From Bdellovibrio bacteriovorus (GTDB lineage: Bacteria > Bdellovibrionota > Bdellovibrionia > Bdellovibrionales > Bdellovibrionaceae), in contig NZ_LUKF01000001.1 in NCBI RefSeq assembly GCF_001592755.1, positions 160,774 through 224,773 on the forward strand: 64,000 nucleotides of DNA, given 5' to 3'. Position numbers and translations under genes: made by a program. The notes beneath the pieces are model-generated. The model searched no databases, was not told where the DNA came from, and saw only the letters and a list, made by a program, of their open reading frames with translations. Below are positions 24,399 to 29,288 of the stretch, piece by piece (within the stretch, counting starts at the first letter, position 1; each line of letters starts with the position of its first letter).

Positions 24399-26255
24399 AT
24401 GACGATGAAATTAAGCGGCGCTCGAAAACAGAAGGAATCGACAAACTTTTATTCATCTTTCGACCAACTCAATGGCGTGCATCCTTGGATGGAGTCCGTT
24501 GAAGAGGGTTACGTTTCTTACCGCGTTCGCGAACTTCGCACCGGCAAAGTGGCTTACTTCAACTTTATATTAGCAAAAGAAATGGGCCTTATTTCTCCTG
24601 ATCATCCTTTGCAGATGACGGAAGATTTGGAAAATAAGCTGATCGAAACTTTTTCGATTCAAATCATCAACGAATACGACGAACTCACCCAACGCCGCAT
24701 TGATCCTGAGACTGTCCGCCCTCATCGCCACATGGCCACTCGCTACCTTCAACTTCAACACGCTAACAAACAAGGTAAAACTTCCGGCGATGGCCGTGGT
24801 ATCTGGAATGGTACGGTTTATCACCGTGGTACGACGTGGGACGTTTCCAGTCGTGGCACGGGAGTCACGTGTTTAGCTCCGGGAGCTGTCGAAGCGGCAA
24901 AGCCTTTGAAAACAGGCGGCACTCAATTCGGGTACGGTTGCGGCTTAGCCGAAATTGACGAGCTTCTTGGCGCCTCTATCTTAGCAGAAGTCATGCATCT
25001 TCAAGGACTGCGCACGGAACGCGTGCTCTGCGTGATTGATCTTGGCAAAGGTTATGGCATCGGCGTCAGAGCCGCACAGAACTTGATTCGCCCTGCACAT
25101 CTTTTCCTTTATCTGAAACAAGAAAAATACGAAACACTGAAATCAGCAACCGACTATTTGATTGAACGTCAGGTTTCGAACAAAGCCTGGAATATTCCTA
25201 CAAAAGGCCCGAACAAATACGATGCTCTTTTAAGCTGTATTTCAAAAGCCTTCGGCGAATTCACCGCACAAATGGATATCGACTATGTCTTTGCCTGGTT
25301 GGACTGGGATGGGGACAACGTTCTAGCCGACGCGGGAATCATCGATTACGGCAGTGTTCGTCAGTTTGGTATTCGTCACGATAAATACCGCTATGACGAC
25401 GTTGAAAGATTCTCGACGAATCTCAACGAGCAAAAACAAAAAGCCCGCCTGATTGTGCAAGTGTTTGCCCAGATGGTGGACTATTTGAAGACAAAAAAGA
25501 AAAGACCTTTGCGTGACTTCGCTCGTCACCCCGAAGTTTTAAAATTTAATAAAACTTTCGATCAAAAGCGGGCCGAGCGTATTTTGTACCGCATGGGCTT
25601 TAACGAAACGCAAAGAAACAATATTTTTGCGCAGAAGAATCTTTTCGAAAAGTTCGATAAAGAATTCACTTTCTTTGAGCGCGCTAAAATCAGCGGTTCC
25701 ACAGAAAAAGTAGCTGACGGAGTCAATCATCCGGCTCTTTTCAATATGCGTGCGATTTTAAAAGAATATCCAAAGTTCCTTCAAGAAAGTCCTGTGCCTT
25801 TTGAAAAGCGTTGGATGACGGACGGGAACTTCTTTAAGATCATTCTTTCTAGTTTTGCTAAAGCTCGCGATGCGCGCATGGGTGAAAAACAACAGCGCCA
25901 CATTGAAAAATTCCAGATGGCTTACCGCGCTTTAGTTGTCGCGGCCGCTGGAAAACAAAAGCCCGAGACAATTATCAAAGGCATCAGTGAACGCGCAGAG
26001 AAATTAAACTCTGACAAACGCATCACTGGAAACGCCTTGATTGAAATGGTCGAAGAGATCATCACCGAAAAGAAAAAAGGTCTGCCGATGGACCAAATCC
26101 AAAAGATCGTCGATCGTTTGGTTTTTGAAAACAACGGCCTGCCTGAAGTGAATACCAGTCGTTTCTATAAAGATCTGCAAAGCACGCCGGCCGTGAAAAT
26201 GGATCTTTACGCAAAACTCTTAAGCCTCGTCGAAGAAAACGCCGAGTCTATTTAG
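24399..26255 (+). CDS. divergent SelO/YdiU-like (pseudokinase-fold) protein
   Basis: The protein is about 618 residues from the ATG at 24399 (AAGGAG 12 bases upstream); a start at 24288 lacks support. It follows the SelO scheme: VAYFNFILAKEMGLI, GDGRGIWNG, SRGTGVT, a SILAEVMHLQGLRTERVL helix, GVRAAQNLIRPAHLFLY, DYLIERQ, then GDNVLADAGIIDYGSVRQF with the metal-binding Asn and Asp. SelO enzymes are pseudokinase-fold proteins that AMPylate other proteins in redox control. Sequence between motifs differs strongly and the C-terminal 250 residues are charged and helical, so the activity needs testing. It overlaps the convergent gene at 26248 by eight bases. Confidence 0.65.
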   Translation: MTMKLSGARKQKESTNFYSSFDQLNGVHPWMESVEEGYVSYRVRELRTGKVAYFNFILAKEMGLISPDHPLQMTEDLENKLIETFSIQIINEYDELTQRRIDPETVRPHRHMATRYLQLQHANKQGKTSGDGRGIWNGTVYHRGTTWDVSSRGTGVTCLAPGAVEAAKPLKTGGTQFGYGCGLAEIDELLGASILAEVMHLQGLRTERVLCVIDLGKGYGIGVRAAQNLIRPAHLFLYLKQEKYETLKSATDYLIERQVSNKAWNIPTKGPNKYDALLSCISKAFGEFTAQMDIDYVFAWLDWDGDNVLADAGIIDYGSVRQFGIRHDKYRYDDVERFSTNLNEQKQKARLIVQVFAQMVDYLKTKKKRPLRDFARHPEVLKFNKTFDQKRAERILYRMGFNETQRNNIFAQKNLFEKFDKEFTFFERAKISGSTEKVADGVNHPALFNMRAILKEYPKFLQESPVPFEKRWMTDGNFFKIILSSFAKARDARMGEKQQRHIEKFQMAYRALVVAAAGKQKPETIIKGISERAEKLNSDKRITGNALIEMVEEIITEKKKGLPMDQIQKIVDRLVFENNGLPEVNTSRFYKDLQSTPAVKMDLYAKLLSLVEENAESI

Positions 26256-26484
26256 AATTCTTATTTAAAGACACGCCCTCAACGATAAGTTCATCGGTGA
26301 GGGCTTCAATCAATGTCCCCGCCCGAGGCAAGGGCAATAACTCCCCTTCGCCAATGATATAGTCCTCAAGAGATCCTTCCATAGTCACCCAAGCCTTCCC
26401 CACTAAAACCTTATACGCATCCGGTACAAGGACTCTCGCAGGATTCCATAGCTCGCCTTTATGAATCTTAATCTGATAAACCAT
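26248..26484 (-). CDS. small beta-rich (DUF2917-like) protein
   Basis: The protein is 78 residues from the ATG at 26484. The core, VLVGKAWVTMEGSLEDYIIG then EGELLPLPRAGTLIEAL, has the short-strand pattern of DUF2917 cupin-like proteins (G-x-V-W-V-T-x-x-G-x-x-x-D-Y-x-L). No function is known. A TATAAT sequence on the minus strand lies about seven bases upstream of the ATG, so the mRNA may be leaderless. It is divergent from the Lrp regulator gene, which could control it. Confidence 0.6.
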   Translation of the reverse strand: MVYQIKIHKGELWNPARVLVPDAYKVLVGKAWVTMEGSLEDYIIGEGELLPLPRAGTLIEALTDELIVEGVSLNKNSK

Positions 26485-26491
26485 ATAAGCC

Positions 26492-26497
26492 ATTATA
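26492..26497 (-). promoter_or_regulatory. candidate -10 box (TATAAT) of the DUF2917-like gene
   Basis: A perfect TATAAT on the minus strand puts the expected transcription start at about 26485, next to the ATG at 26484. No good -35 box at 17 bases was seen. A leaderless transcript is inferred. Confidence 0.4.
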
Positions 26498-26579
26498 CCG
26501 AATATCATTAGATAAATATCGCAAATAGGTGCTATCCTTAAACAAACGAATGGCATTCAGCCAGACCCCAGGGGGACCC

Positions 26580-27023
26580 ATGACTCTTGATGATGTCGAC
26601 AGAAAAATATTAAGTTTATTGAAAGAAGACGCCCGACTTCAGTACGCCGAAATAGGCAAAAAAGTAAACCTCTCCGCCCCCGCCGTCCACGCCCGAGTCA
26701 AAAAGATGGAAACCAACGGCATCATTAAAAGATACACCATCGACATGGAACCAGAACCCCTAGGAGCCAGCCTCTGCGCCTTCGTAAGAATCGCAAAAAG
26801 CAAAGGCACCTCCGCCTCCATCGCCCACCACTTCAAAAAAATAAAACAAATCGAAGAATGCCACGGCGTCGCCGGCGAAGACTGCATCTACATAAAACTA
26901 AGAACCCAATCCACCAACGAACTCTCAAAATTAATAGACGAAATCAGAAGCATAGAAGGCGTAGACCGAACAGTCACAGTAGTAGTCCTAGAAACCCACT
27001 TCGAAAGAGGCCTCCAAGCTTAA
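26580..27023 (+). CDS. Lrp/AsnC-family transcriptional regulator with unusual codon use
   Basis: The protein is 147 residues from the ATG at 26580. An N-terminal HTH (LDDVDRKILSLLKEDARLQY, then IGKKVNLSAPAVHARVKKME) is followed by a RAM ligand-binding domain (CAFVRIAKSKG, HGVAGEDCIYIKLRTQS). Lrp proteins form octamers and sense amino acids. The codons end mostly in A or C and use many ATA, CTA, AGA, CGA and GTA triplets, unlike neighbouring genes, which hints at transfer or unusual mutation pressure. It is divergent from the DUF2917-like gene, a likely target. Confidence 0.9.
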   Translation: MTLDDVDRKILSLLKEDARLQYAEIGKKVNLSAPAVHARVKKMETNGIIKRYTIDMEPEPLGASLCAFVRIAKSKGTSASIAHHFKKIKQIEECHGVAGEDCIYIKLRTQSTNELSKLIDEIRSIEGVDRTVTVVVLETHFERGLQA

Positions 27024-27140
27024 AAGCGCTTTCGCCAAACTCACTATCCATGAGAGACCTCATATCCAATTCGAGACAGTCCGAGCCCCAGTCACTGGTC
27101 CTTGGACTGTTGTACACGCGGTGAAGGCATCTAACGAACC

Positions 27141-27242
27141 CTAAATCTTACTAAGAATAGTGATCAGCAATAAAATTATCACCAAGACCACTTTAGCAAT
27201 CTCAAGAATACGCCGAACACGTAAATAGTTGTGTTTACGCAT
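27141..27242 (-). CDS. 33-residue single-pass membrane protein
   Basis: This short ORF has an excellent AGGAGG site six bases before its ATG at 27242. It encodes a basic N-terminus (MRKHNYLRVRRILE) and a membrane segment (VVLVIILLLITILSKI), ending at TAG. Size and layout fit small membrane regulators or type I toxin-like peptides, but no family is recognised. It lies alone between the Lrp gene and a hairpin/inverted-repeat region. The ribosome binding site and the membrane segment together make it more likely real than chance. Confidence 0.6.
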   Translation of the reverse strand: MRKHNYLRVRRILEIAKVVLVIILLLITILSKI

Positions 27243-27280
27243 CGGACACCTCCTGTTGTTAAACGGACAGGAGATCCACC

Positions 27281-27314
27281 AAAAGCGAATCTGGCGAAAG
27301 CAAGATTCGCTTTT
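27281..27314. repeat. long hairpin with GAAA tetraloop
   Basis: AAAAGCGAATCT (27281-27292) and AGATTCGCTTTT (27303-27314) are perfect inverted repeats around GGCGAAAGCA, in which GC-GAAA-GC can form a stable tetraloop. It could be a terminator with a weak T-run on the plus strand, or part of the structured region that follows. Confidence 0.6.
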
Positions 27315-27382
27315 GCATTTCTAACTCCAAAAAAATCCCCTCCCCAAAAGCGCCCACGGCAACAAAAACAAAACTTCCGCAG

Positions 27383-27590
27383 TTCTTCCCCTAGGAGTTA
27401 ACGAAGATTTGCTTTTCGAAGAAGTCTTAGAGTGCTTACCCGAAGAAGGGCCTTAGCCGGCGCCACGATGGCGCGAACCGAGGCAAAGCCTCGGCGGCGA
27501 CCGAGCCTGGAAGGCGTGCCCGCCGAAGCGGTAAACACTCTAAGACTTCTTCGAAAAGCAAATCCCCCGTCTGAAACGACAAGGGAAGAA
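27383..27590. repeat. inverted-repeat element with internal GC-rich hairpins (MITE-like or structured RNA)
   Basis: A perfect 29-bp inverted repeat (27406-27434 and 27536-27564) extends to about 35 bp with mismatches and is flanked by TTCTTCCC/GGGAAGAA arms (27383-27390, 27583-27590). The interior is much GC-richer than its surroundings. It folds into GCGCC-ACGAT-GGCGC (27460-27474) and CCGAGGC-AAA-GCCTCGG (27478-27494). No target-site duplication or transposase is visible. The ORFs through it are by-products of the symmetry. Confidence 0.75.
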
Positions 27591-27636
27591 AAAAGGAAAC
27601 CCACACGCGGGGATTTCCAGAAGGACACGTGTGGGC
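27591..27636 (-). terminator. terminator of the L,D-transpeptidase gene
   Basis: CCCACACG (27600-27607) and CGTGTGGG (27628-27635) form the stem. On the minus strand it is followed by TTTCCTTTTTTCTT. It lies just after the stop at 27663. Confidence 0.8.
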
Positions 27637-27662
27637 TTTGAGGGGCTTTGATACCGAAACAA

Positions 27663-28409
27663 TTAGTTCGCGTAAGCGTAGATCAAAGTACCATTTTTCA
27701 ACATGTTAATAACTTTAGTTTTTAGTGAGCTCGCCACTGCAGGGCAACCCCAGCTACGACCTTGGATCACTGACTTTTCTTTTACATAGCTAGCACCGTG
27801 GATAACAACCGCACGACCGCGCGCATTTGAGTTTGTGGAAGAAAGACCATCAAGTCTTAAAGACAAACCATTGCTTCCGTTGTAAGTGCTGCCCGTCAGG
27901 TAATAACCCAAAGAGCTCGCTTTAGAACCCGACTTGTTGCTGAACTTCTCTGCGTAACCGTCGTGGTTCGAGTCAGAACCTTTACCGTGAGCTACGTGGA
28001 TGCTCCATACTTTACCCGTTTTCATATCAATAATATGGAAGCGAGCTTTTGTGGATTTCGATCCGAAGTCGATCACAGAAACATAGTTCTTATTTTTGAT
28101 TTTTGATTTATTTGAATCGAAATAAATCAAAGCTTTTGCCAGAGCATCGGTATTAATAGCTCTGTTTGGATCCACGTAATCGTACTCTTTTAAGATCGCA
28201 GATTTAGTACTTGTTGCAACCGCATTCTCTTCAACCATATTGGCTGCTTCTGGGTTTTCTGTCTGAGCCGTAGAGTCAAATACTTGCTCTTGAGTGGCAT
28301 CGTCTTGCAACGTCTCCGTGGAACTTAAGTCTTCACTGTTTCCTGCGCATGCAGCTAGTCCTAGGTAAGCAGTCAACACAAGTGAGCTTAGTAATGTTTT
28401 TTTCGTCAT
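27663..28409 (-). CDS. lipoprotein murein L,D-transpeptidase (YkuD-like)
   Basis: This 248-residue protein has a lipoprotein signal with lipobox LAAC (Cys21), a Glu/Thr-rich linker to about residue 70, and a catalytic domain with VVIHGASY (His204) and GRSWGCPAVA (catalytic Cys222), the HG...S-x-GC signature of the YkuD_2 group. Such enzymes form 3-3 crosslinks or exchange D-amino acids in peptidoglycan and can attach proteins to it. L,D-transpeptidases strengthen the prey wall during Bdellovibrio growth, so a predation role is possible. It stands alone with its own terminator. Confidence 0.9.
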   Translation of the reverse strand: MTKKTLLSSLVLTAYLGLAACAGNSEDLSSTETLQDDATQEQVFDSTAQTENPEAANMVEENAVATSTKSAILKEYDYVDPNRAINTDALAKALIYFDSNKSKIKNKNYVSVIDFGSKSTKARFHIIDMKTGKVWSIHVAHGKGSDSNHDGYAEKFSNKSGSKASSLGYYLTGSTYNGSNGLSLRLDGLSSTNSNARGRAVVIHGASYVKEKSVIQGRSWGCPAVASSLKTKVINMLKNGTLIYAYAN

Positions 28410-28607
28410 TCTTCCTCCGTGAAAAATTGGCGTTGTGTGTTTTGTGAGATCCTACATAAACGACCTTACAAAGCGGCAATTTTCGTTACGGAAAAAAGAA
28501 ATTTAAGACGTTCATCCCCAAAAAAATTGAGAATGCTTTTGATATCGCAAGTCCAAGGTTCGTGAACAAACTCAGGTTCAGTTTTTACATTTAAAGGATA
28601 TTCAGAT

Positions 28608-28641
28608 TTAAAGAAAGAAAACGGCGAGGACCCTCGCCGTT
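28608..28641 (-). terminator. terminator of the S41 protease/esterase operon
   Basis: AACGGCGAGG and CCTCGCCGTT form a 10-bp stem, followed on the minus strand by TTCTTTCTTT. It lies six bases after the esterase stop. Confidence 0.8.
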
Positions 28642-28646
28642 ATGAT

Positions 28647-29288
28647 TTATTTTTTAAGTTCGGAAAGCTGATCGCGCACCCATTTACGGATGATCGGATA
28701 CTCTTCATCCTGAAGAGAATGGTCTTTATCCATCTCTACCCAGTCGACTTTCAGCCCGGCATCTTTCAATTTCTCAACGCCGTACTTAGTTTCCTCTAGA
28801 GGAAGAATATCGTCTTGATGACCGTGGGTGAATAGCCATGGTGTGTGGCGGGCTTCCATAGATAAATTCGAACGCCAGCGAGGATAGAAATTAAAATACC
28901 CACTGATGCCTACAACGCCGGCCAGCTTCTTAGGATAATTCAAACCCACGTCAGCACTGATCAGACAGCCTTGAGAAAAACCAAATAGAAAGATCTTTTT
29001 CGGATCCCAGCCCTGATTTTCTAAATCATTTAACAGATCAAAAAGCTTTTCCCGAATTTTAAGTACACCGTTACTTTGAAACGGAGGCTCTCCATACCAA
29101 GTGTAACCATCCATAAAACGGCGAGGCGCATTCAACAGAAGATAATTCATTTCTGGAATATTCAGCTCATCATTAAAGGAATAAAACGGACGAATGCTGT
29201 CACCGCGACCGTGCAAAACAATCATCAAAAATTCGGACTTCTTTTTTGCGGGGATAAACTTATGCTTAAATAAATTCGTCGAAATCAT
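28647..29288 (-). CDS. alpha/beta-hydrolase, phospholipase/carboxylesterase family
   Basis: This 213-residue cytoplasmic protein has an oxyanion-loop strand, MIVLHGRGDS, the nucleophile elbow GFSQGCLIS, a catalytic Asp in HGHQDDILPLEE and a His in DKDHSLQDEE. This is the YpfH/EstB-type serine esterase family with broad acyl-ester substrates. Its ATG overlaps the stop of the S41 peptidase gene by four bases, so the two are translationally coupled. A strong terminator follows. Confidence 0.88.
   Translation of the reverse strand: MISTNLFKHKFIPAKKKSEFLMIVLHGRGDSIRPFYSFNDELNIPEMNYLLLNAPRRFMDGYTWYGEPPFQSNGVLKIREKLFDLLNDLENQGWDPKKIFLFGFSQGCLISADVGLNYPKKLAGVVGISGYFNFYPRWRSNLSMEARHTPWLFTHGHQDDILPLEETKYGVEKLKDAGLKVDWVEMDKDHSLQDEEYPIIRKWVRDQLSELKK

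Follow-up and report, generated by a model that had tools for sequence, protein, structure and literature searches.

The palindrome at 27383-27590 of the window, the 64,000-nucleotide stretch of Bdellovibrio bacteriovorus DNA analysed here (contig NZ_LUKF01000001.1, positions 160,774 to 224,773), is one copy of a multi-copy, non-coding DNA hairpin family of Bdellovibrio and its relatives. We read it as a copy of a non-autonomous mobile palindrome of the MITE type, about 170-240 bp long, that acts as folded DNA (probability about 0.58). Evidence that bears on this reading includes the pattern of base changes in the paired positions, the comparison of the same sites between sister species, and a group of IS1-related transposons that carry the hairpin.

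Architecture of the window copy

The palindrome consists of a 29-bp perfect inverted repeat around three small hairpins, which are arranged in two junctions, with a complementary 8-mer pair farther out (Table 1). The perfect part of the stem is its outer 29 bp, 27406-27434 with 27536-27564. A preliminary description, made from the letters alone, had recognized this repeat and the extra outer pair, and both are borne out, the pair TTCTTCCC/GGGAAGAA lying at exactly 27383 and 27590; it had counted two further hairpins inside the repeat, where we find three. The best outer inverted-repeat score of the window copy is low (8.0) and falls at a place other than this 8-mer pair. The same description had called the composition unlike that of the surroundings, and the GC content is indeed 0.67 at 27450-27549, compared with 0.32-0.53 in the 100-base windows of 26000-29000 lying outside 27400-27599, and with 0.455 over the whole window. 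The RNA fold of 27340-27640 has an energy of -136.5 kcal/mol (z = -9.15), which none of 100 shuffles equals, and the structure is therefore far from chance.

Table 1 Features of the palindrome (positions in the window)
Feature	Sequence	Position	Strand	Remarks
Outer left 8-mer	TTCTTCCC	27383..27390	+	Pairs with 27583-27590; read directly from the sequence
Left arm of long stem		27406..27440	+	35 nt, 34/35 complementary to the right arm
Conserved core		27435..27534	+	Covariance model R1, 107.4 bits, this copy being one of the 30 cores from which R1 was built (G000:C1:188208-188307; window start C1:160774)
Basal core helix, 5' side	GGGCC	27448..27452	+	Partners G27516 and 27518-27521
Hairpin 1	GCGCC-ACGAT-GGCGC	27460..27474	+	Five-base loop; GA invariant in the 30-copy alignment
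Hairpin 2	CCGAGGC-AAA-GCCTCGG	27478..27494	+	Two-sided changes in 4/5 model pairs
Hairpin 3	GCC-TGGAA-GGC	27505..27515	+	
Right arm of long stem		27530..27564	+	Partner of 27406-27440
Right flank	CCCCGTCTGAAAC	27565..27589	+	Commonest form in the family CCCCGCTCGAAGC; ends at the A-tract of the convergent gene's terminator
Outer right 8-mer	GGGAAGAA	27583..27590	+	Read directly from the sequence

Copies and distribution of the family

A blastn search of the own genome (G000) returned 19 rows, two of them the arms of one copy, and copies were found in 18 of 39 relatives, all of the same genus. The search for further copies that had been proposed thus yields many, dispersed through the own genome and its relatives. 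The covariance model R1, built from 30 cores (a 30-sequence MAFFT alignment), recognizes 26 copies in the own genome. Of the 24 genomes of the genus Bdellovibrio, 22 have matches and two (G002 and G003) have none. Among 78 sampled genomes of the order, 17 have matches, which fall in 3 of 45 genera including the own one; two other genera of the family hold four copies each. B. bacteriovorus HD100 (G005) has 13 R1 matches, and the own genome and its sister species have about 25 copies per genome. For detailed study, 24 of the 26 own R1 matches and 22 of the 23 in the sister genome (G018) were fetched. Phages and plasmids gave no blastn match, nor did viral contigs searched with a single exact degenerate pattern. 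No description of the element was found in the literature on repeats, insertion sequences, MITEs or small RNAs, mainly in openly accessible papers.

The copies, found through their tip, have a core of ~90 nt in common. It comprises a basal helix, a second helix bearing hairpins 1 and 2, a linker, and then hairpin 3. Among the linkers, the GAA that goes with hairpins 1 and 2 is invariant in the 30-copy alignment, and the one before hairpin 3 is of the C-Y-G-A type. The stem measures 26-41 bp in 64 of 70 copies and is broken in the remaining six, where the same rule gives 5-22 bp. Hardly any two non-orthologous sites share its sequence, an exception being the transposon copies L105 and L106 of G012. 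Pairing is nevertheless kept: in the arms of the 64 copies (the six left out of this census have one arm shorter than 25 bp), 2,039 of 2,130 positions are Watson-Crick pairs (96%), the remainder being 29 G-T, 35 A-G, 15 A-C and 12 other combinations, and 13 of the 64 stems are perfect.

Among the outer motifs, AGCAAA-GATTTG is common to the left of the stem and CAAATCCCCGCTCGAAGC to its right. In some copies CGTC follows the stem, and the window copy has CCCCCGTC at that place. A further outer inverted repeat (score at least 12) occurs in 13 of 64 copies versus 1 of 880 controls, which were left/right combinations of different copies from the same genome; part of this excess may come from similar terminators on both sides. 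Across the family the element is about 170-240 bp long, and it appears to be structure, not a reading frame, that is conserved.

Covariation in the core

Covariation had been proposed as a check, and it proved strong. In the 70-copy alignment (67 distinct rows), which was fitted to the structure of the model, 17 of 24 pairs show two-sided changes, with 216 cells doubly changed. None of 500 shuffles reaches these covariation values, and sliding the partner destroys the signal. One further measure, the number of additional pair types, is attained by 20 of 500 shuffles for the 70-copy alignment and by 259 of 500 for the 30-sequence one; no shuffle attains any of the others. The 30-sequence MAFFT alignment gives a similar picture, with two-sided changes in 11 of 24 pairs.

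Wobble pairs are scarce throughout. G-U occupies 2 of 1,590 core cells in the 70-copy alignment and none in the 30-sequence set, and A-C, which is G-U on the opposite strand, occupies one of the cells. RNA folds of the 70 elements contain 109 G-U among 4,861 pairs. The tRNA control comprised a single tRNA with G-U in 6 of 29 pairs and is too small to lean on. Because wobble pairs are nearly absent despite 216 two-sided changes, the fold looks constrained or corrected as DNA and not as RNA; that is, the structure looks like one held or repaired at the DNA level.

Mirrored stem changes between sister species

Twenty own copies have a counterpart at the same site in G018, with aligned flanks 82-99.5% identical. 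The L056 counterpart there, which lies outside the fetched G018 loci, has lost hairpin 1 and brings the shared sites to 21 of 24 (L062 is left out). The window copy is also present in this sister species, and L060 and L070 are absent from it. In the 16 orthologous pairs with full arms, 455 of 518 positions are the same, 51 changed on both sides and 12 on one side; this count omits the four of 20 pairs with one arm shorter than 25 bp (L055/L078, L059/L080, L072/L084 and L074/L092), and some of its arm alignments are uncertain, the arms of L061/L076 and L068/L090 being very diverged. In one of the omitted pairs, L055/L078, one arm carries a block of changes; the species do not differ in the opposite arm or in the 3' flank. 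Template switching can make and mend hairpin stems, as passages of PMC8794818 describe. The process would be expected to yield mirrored changes of several bases with few intermediates, and from the aligned arms we infer that it may act on these stems.

Insertion sites and gene context

Two own copies are insertions relative to the sister genome: L060 of 235 bp, and L070 of 376 bp, which G008 lacks as well. Both lie at A/T tracts, with AAAATA around L060 and a T-run around L070. Since the insert lengths differ, the left boundary of the element is unsettled. At the place of the L058 pair, G008, G013 and G019 have 39-53 bases between the aligned ends of the convergent genes, too few for a copy, and two of 14 relatives' loci, those of G014 and G007, do have a copy in this gap (L240 2734-2834 and L235 3639-3732). 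The place is either shared or was hit again. Movement is rare, because the sister species shares 21 of the 24 own sites and the L058 gap is occupied in G014 and G007 too. That sites differ between distant species is therefore not claimed here.

At the window locus, homology with G008 starts at 27590, in the A-tract of the convergent gene's terminator. G008 lacks the whole block 26256-27589, including a small minus-strand gene and genes beyond the element; the block contains a regulator gene, presumably AsnC/Lrp-like. As neighbouring genes are missing too, 27590 is a hint at a boundary and not a clean empty site. Empty sites, the search for which had been proposed, were thus found for L060, L070 and the L058 pair but not for the window copy, which is present in G018 and lies within the block absent from G008. 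L083, a copy found in G018 only, was rejected as a clean empty site since the own genome has other DNA there.

Nineteen of the 24 own copies, and 16 of 22 in G018 (mostly the same sites), face the end of the gene on their 3' side, with genes called by a simple frame rule. Close pairs of copies in the fetched loci are always arranged minus then plus (15/15, or 13 after removing two sister-species counterparts), and many of these loci were fetched because the pair was visible in the match lists. We read such pairs as two insertions next to convergent genes; a transposon with two hairpins was rejected, since the spacers of nine pairs share no sequence by eye except between orthologs. A YTAR target site was also considered: YTAR stands 8 bases to the left of the arm in 11/64 copies, more often than the background of 0.014 per position. 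As this spot and the outer stem's conserved AGC overlap, we claim no target motif.

Several neighbouring features were observed on the way. The L070 insert (G000:C17, locus positions 1455-1830) adds about 190 bp with parts that by eye look like a promoter and a terminator, possibly a small RNA gene. Terminator-like hairpins lie near the 5' side of several copies, namely L060 (inside the insert), L061 and the window copy (27280-27315). An unrelated repeat of ~240 bp occupies 27077-27324 of the window and has blastn copies in G000, G018, G020, G012, G015 and others. By eye, its minus strand holds a ribosome-binding site, a 33-aa hydrophobic peptide and an adjoining hairpin (27076-27110), in what we take to resemble a type I toxin unit. 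Positions 27023-27190 are absent from G018, where the flanks nearly abut.

Terminal repeats and an IS1-related carrier transposon

In G076, a genome of another genus of the family, AACTGSCCCC-like repeats bound three of four copies on both sides at the same distance of 55-57 nt. One of its copies, L217, measures 204 bp and has a 9-bp direct repeat, TACTCGATA, beside GAAACTG...CAGTTTC; this target duplication was read from the sequence, and the script listed none at the four G076 copies because the repeat boundary ran into the duplication. Among 95 copies from all genera, no Bdellovibrio solo copy has the G076-type terminal inverted repeat (TIR) on both sides, in a search whose motif was picked after seeing the G076 copies and could miss other TIRs. 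The window copy shows no recognizable terminal repeats and no target site duplication (TSD). The evidence supports assigning the family to a MITE system; by a strict test the window copy alone would not be called a MITE.

Two copies in G012 share, besides the hairpin, the end of the upstream gene, and this gene is part of a transposon. The transposon is about 1,229 bp long (L185:1266-2494), has the short terminal repeats AACTGATCC/GGATCAGTT, and carries the hairpin after its transposase gene and before the right terminal repeat. One of its four copies (L171) is flanked by an exact 9-bp TSD, GATTCTTTA; by eye, the duplication is imperfect at L192 and not seen at L185 and L194. Target duplications of the IS1 family are 8-9 bp. 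The transposase is encoded in one long frame of about 292 aa, and the NCBIfam model transpos_IS1 (cut-off 100) gives two carriers 44.1 and 54.0 bits and a relative that lacks the hairpin 37.5. As judged by these scores, the carrier transposase is a distant relative of the IS1 family and is not filed as a member.

The genus contains 25 transposase loci, grouped by identity and sequence features. In the closest group of nine, eight have an R1 match, intact or damaged, just behind the transposase gene (four in G012, one in G013, two in G009 and one in G010), and the ninth, in G019, has a long palindrome there whose tip is unmatched. None of the other 16 loci has an R1 match within roughly 1.5 kb of flank, and the two IS1-like transposases of the own genome, like those of G018, belong to this hairpin-free group. 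The five relatives of the transposon found in the GTDB collection are all from Bdellovibrio MAGs. The hairpin-free loci L176, L186, L187, L181, L182 and others encode IS1-like transposases 34-49% identical to the query. Several right ends of hairpin-free transposons read GGGGSCAGTTT, which is the TIR motif of the G076 copies L208 and L217.

An HD100 copy within a published transcript

With HD100 coordinates anchored by the c-di-GMP riboswitch inside the published merRNA, one HD100 copy (1,339,149-1,339,248, minus strand) lies inside APsRNA6 (1,338,787-1,339,441, plus strand), for which Table 2 of PMC3627812 gives a 46-fold increase in attack phase and a FliA promoter. It is the only one of 13 HD100 copies to overlap an AP-specific sRNA, and APsRNA6 the only one of eight such sRNAs, on the attack-phase list of that paper. 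APsRNA6 contains an 89-aa frame (L221 1174-1443) like that of a small membrane protein, with the hairpin after it, so that this transcript may be an mRNA whose 3' end is a hairpin. Where it ends, a second hairpin begins that by eye looks decayed. In Rfam, the window has no match at the gathering score and four weak ones below it (E 0.085-3.5).

Discussion

The preliminary description had left two readings side by side, a mobile element or a large structured RNA. The mobile one finds support at the level of the family, with dispersed copies, empty sites, carriage by IS1-like transposons and the TIRs of G076, and the window copy itself offers neither a recognizable TIR nor a TSD. The RNA one is weakened by the few G-U pairs. 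It would make the element part of a 3' untranslated region or of a small RNA, on the strand opposite to the drawn one, that stabilizes or processes transcripts. Its conserved loops and linkers, its place behind genes that end towards it (19/24 own copies, 16/22 in G018) and the copy inside APsRNA6 would all suit such a role. However, a selected RNA should often pass through G-U, so that 2 G-U and 1 A-C cells in the core despite many two-sided changes, together with 29 G-T and 15 A-C among 2,130 arm positions, argue against it; so do the lack of an Rfam match at the gathering score and the single coincidence with the attack-phase list of PMC3627812. We regard a structured RNA as unlikely. A slightly lower probability goes to a domesticated DNA site akin to the REP/BIME repeats, kept by the host near gene ends after mobility was lost and used for protein binding, for supercoiling or for blocking convergent transcription or replication. 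The persistence of the same sites in two sister species, the copies of G014 and G007 between the same two genes (in the single locus examined), the number of about 25 copies per genome, the uniform arrangement of close pairs (15/15) and a core conserved where the own genome has no cognate transposon all fit such a site. Yet 2 of 24 genomes of the genus have no match, the L058 locus has no room for a copy in three genomes, and no binding protein is known.

An integron attC-like site, at which recombination takes place on a folded single strand, would share the DNA-level folding with a variable stem sequence, and the 376-bp insert does carry other DNA in a promoter-like and terminator-like arrangement by eye. 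But attC sites keep their ends and vary at the tip, whereas the conserved part here is the tip, and the copies are dispersed and not in cassette arrays; this reading is very improbable. A chance palindrome or local duplication, for which the preliminary description had given a single copy and no covariation as the signs, is refuted by a family that is clearly multi-copy and covarying, and receives practically no weight. Against the mobile palindrome that we favour stand the absence of a Bdellovibrio solo copy with a two-sided G076-type TIR, the lack of a TSD at the window copy, and the placing of the own genome's two IS1-like transposases in the hairpin-free group.

We propose the following model for the mobile palindrome. 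An IS1-like transposase would have moved the element in trans, and the tip would be recognized as a DNA hairpin or cruciform by that transposase or by a host protein. The stem would stay perfect when replication forks switch template between the arms and copy a change in one arm into the other, and selection against long mismatched palindromes may help to keep it so. Copies settle beside stop codons and terminator A/T tracts, perhaps because an insertion is least harmful at such places. A host function could lie behind the conservation of loops and linkers and the placement 3' of genes (19/24). It is tempting to speculate, although only tentatively, that the element is a self-repairing hairpin, in which a protein reads the structure of the tip and the stem sequence is largely free and again and again re-made symmetric as template switching copies one arm into the other; its shape would then be what is inherited, and it may now serve the host at gene ends.

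If this is true, the family is a natural many-copy experiment on the evolution of perfect palindromes, in which the same locus can be compared across species. Counts of mirrored and one-sided changes would separate template switching from selection and bear on the origin of compensatory changes. The family would also extend the ends of IS1-like transposons by a structured palindrome and name a repeat that touches a published Bdellovibrio attack-phase transcript.

In shape, the element recalls the inverted terminal repeats of linear virus genomes, which have cross-arms at the hairpin tip: both would combine a long stem with small palindromes at its tip. The copies here differ in lying inside a bacterial chromosome, and we claim no sequence relation. 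With the IS1 family, the carrier shares a transposase that resembles transpos_IS1 and, at one copy, a 9-bp TSD; it differs in scoring below the 100-bit cut-off and in its one long frame of about 292 aa. We know of no IS1 element with a structured palindrome between the transposase gene and the right TIR. Like the prokaryotic MITEs treated in sections of PMC10969869 (Correia elements and others), the copies are short, non-coding, dispersed, palindromic and mostly intergenic, and relatives in another genus have TIRs of an insertion-sequence type, one of them with a TSD. Unlike these MITEs, the window copy has no recognizable TIR or TSD, and the family has a conserved three-hairpin tip on a stem that varies from site to site yet remains paired. 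REP/BIME elements (GTAG and CGTC families) are likewise multi-copy intergenic palindromes that are often paired, according to parts of PMC3733652, in whose main text the word "Bdellovibrio" does not occur. The same parts give REPs as 20-40 bp and link the GTAG kind to IS200/IS605-type tyrosine transposases, whereas the elements described here are about 170 bp, beyond the REP size with a stem of mostly 26-41 bp plus a ~90-nt tip, and are linked to an IS1-like transposase.
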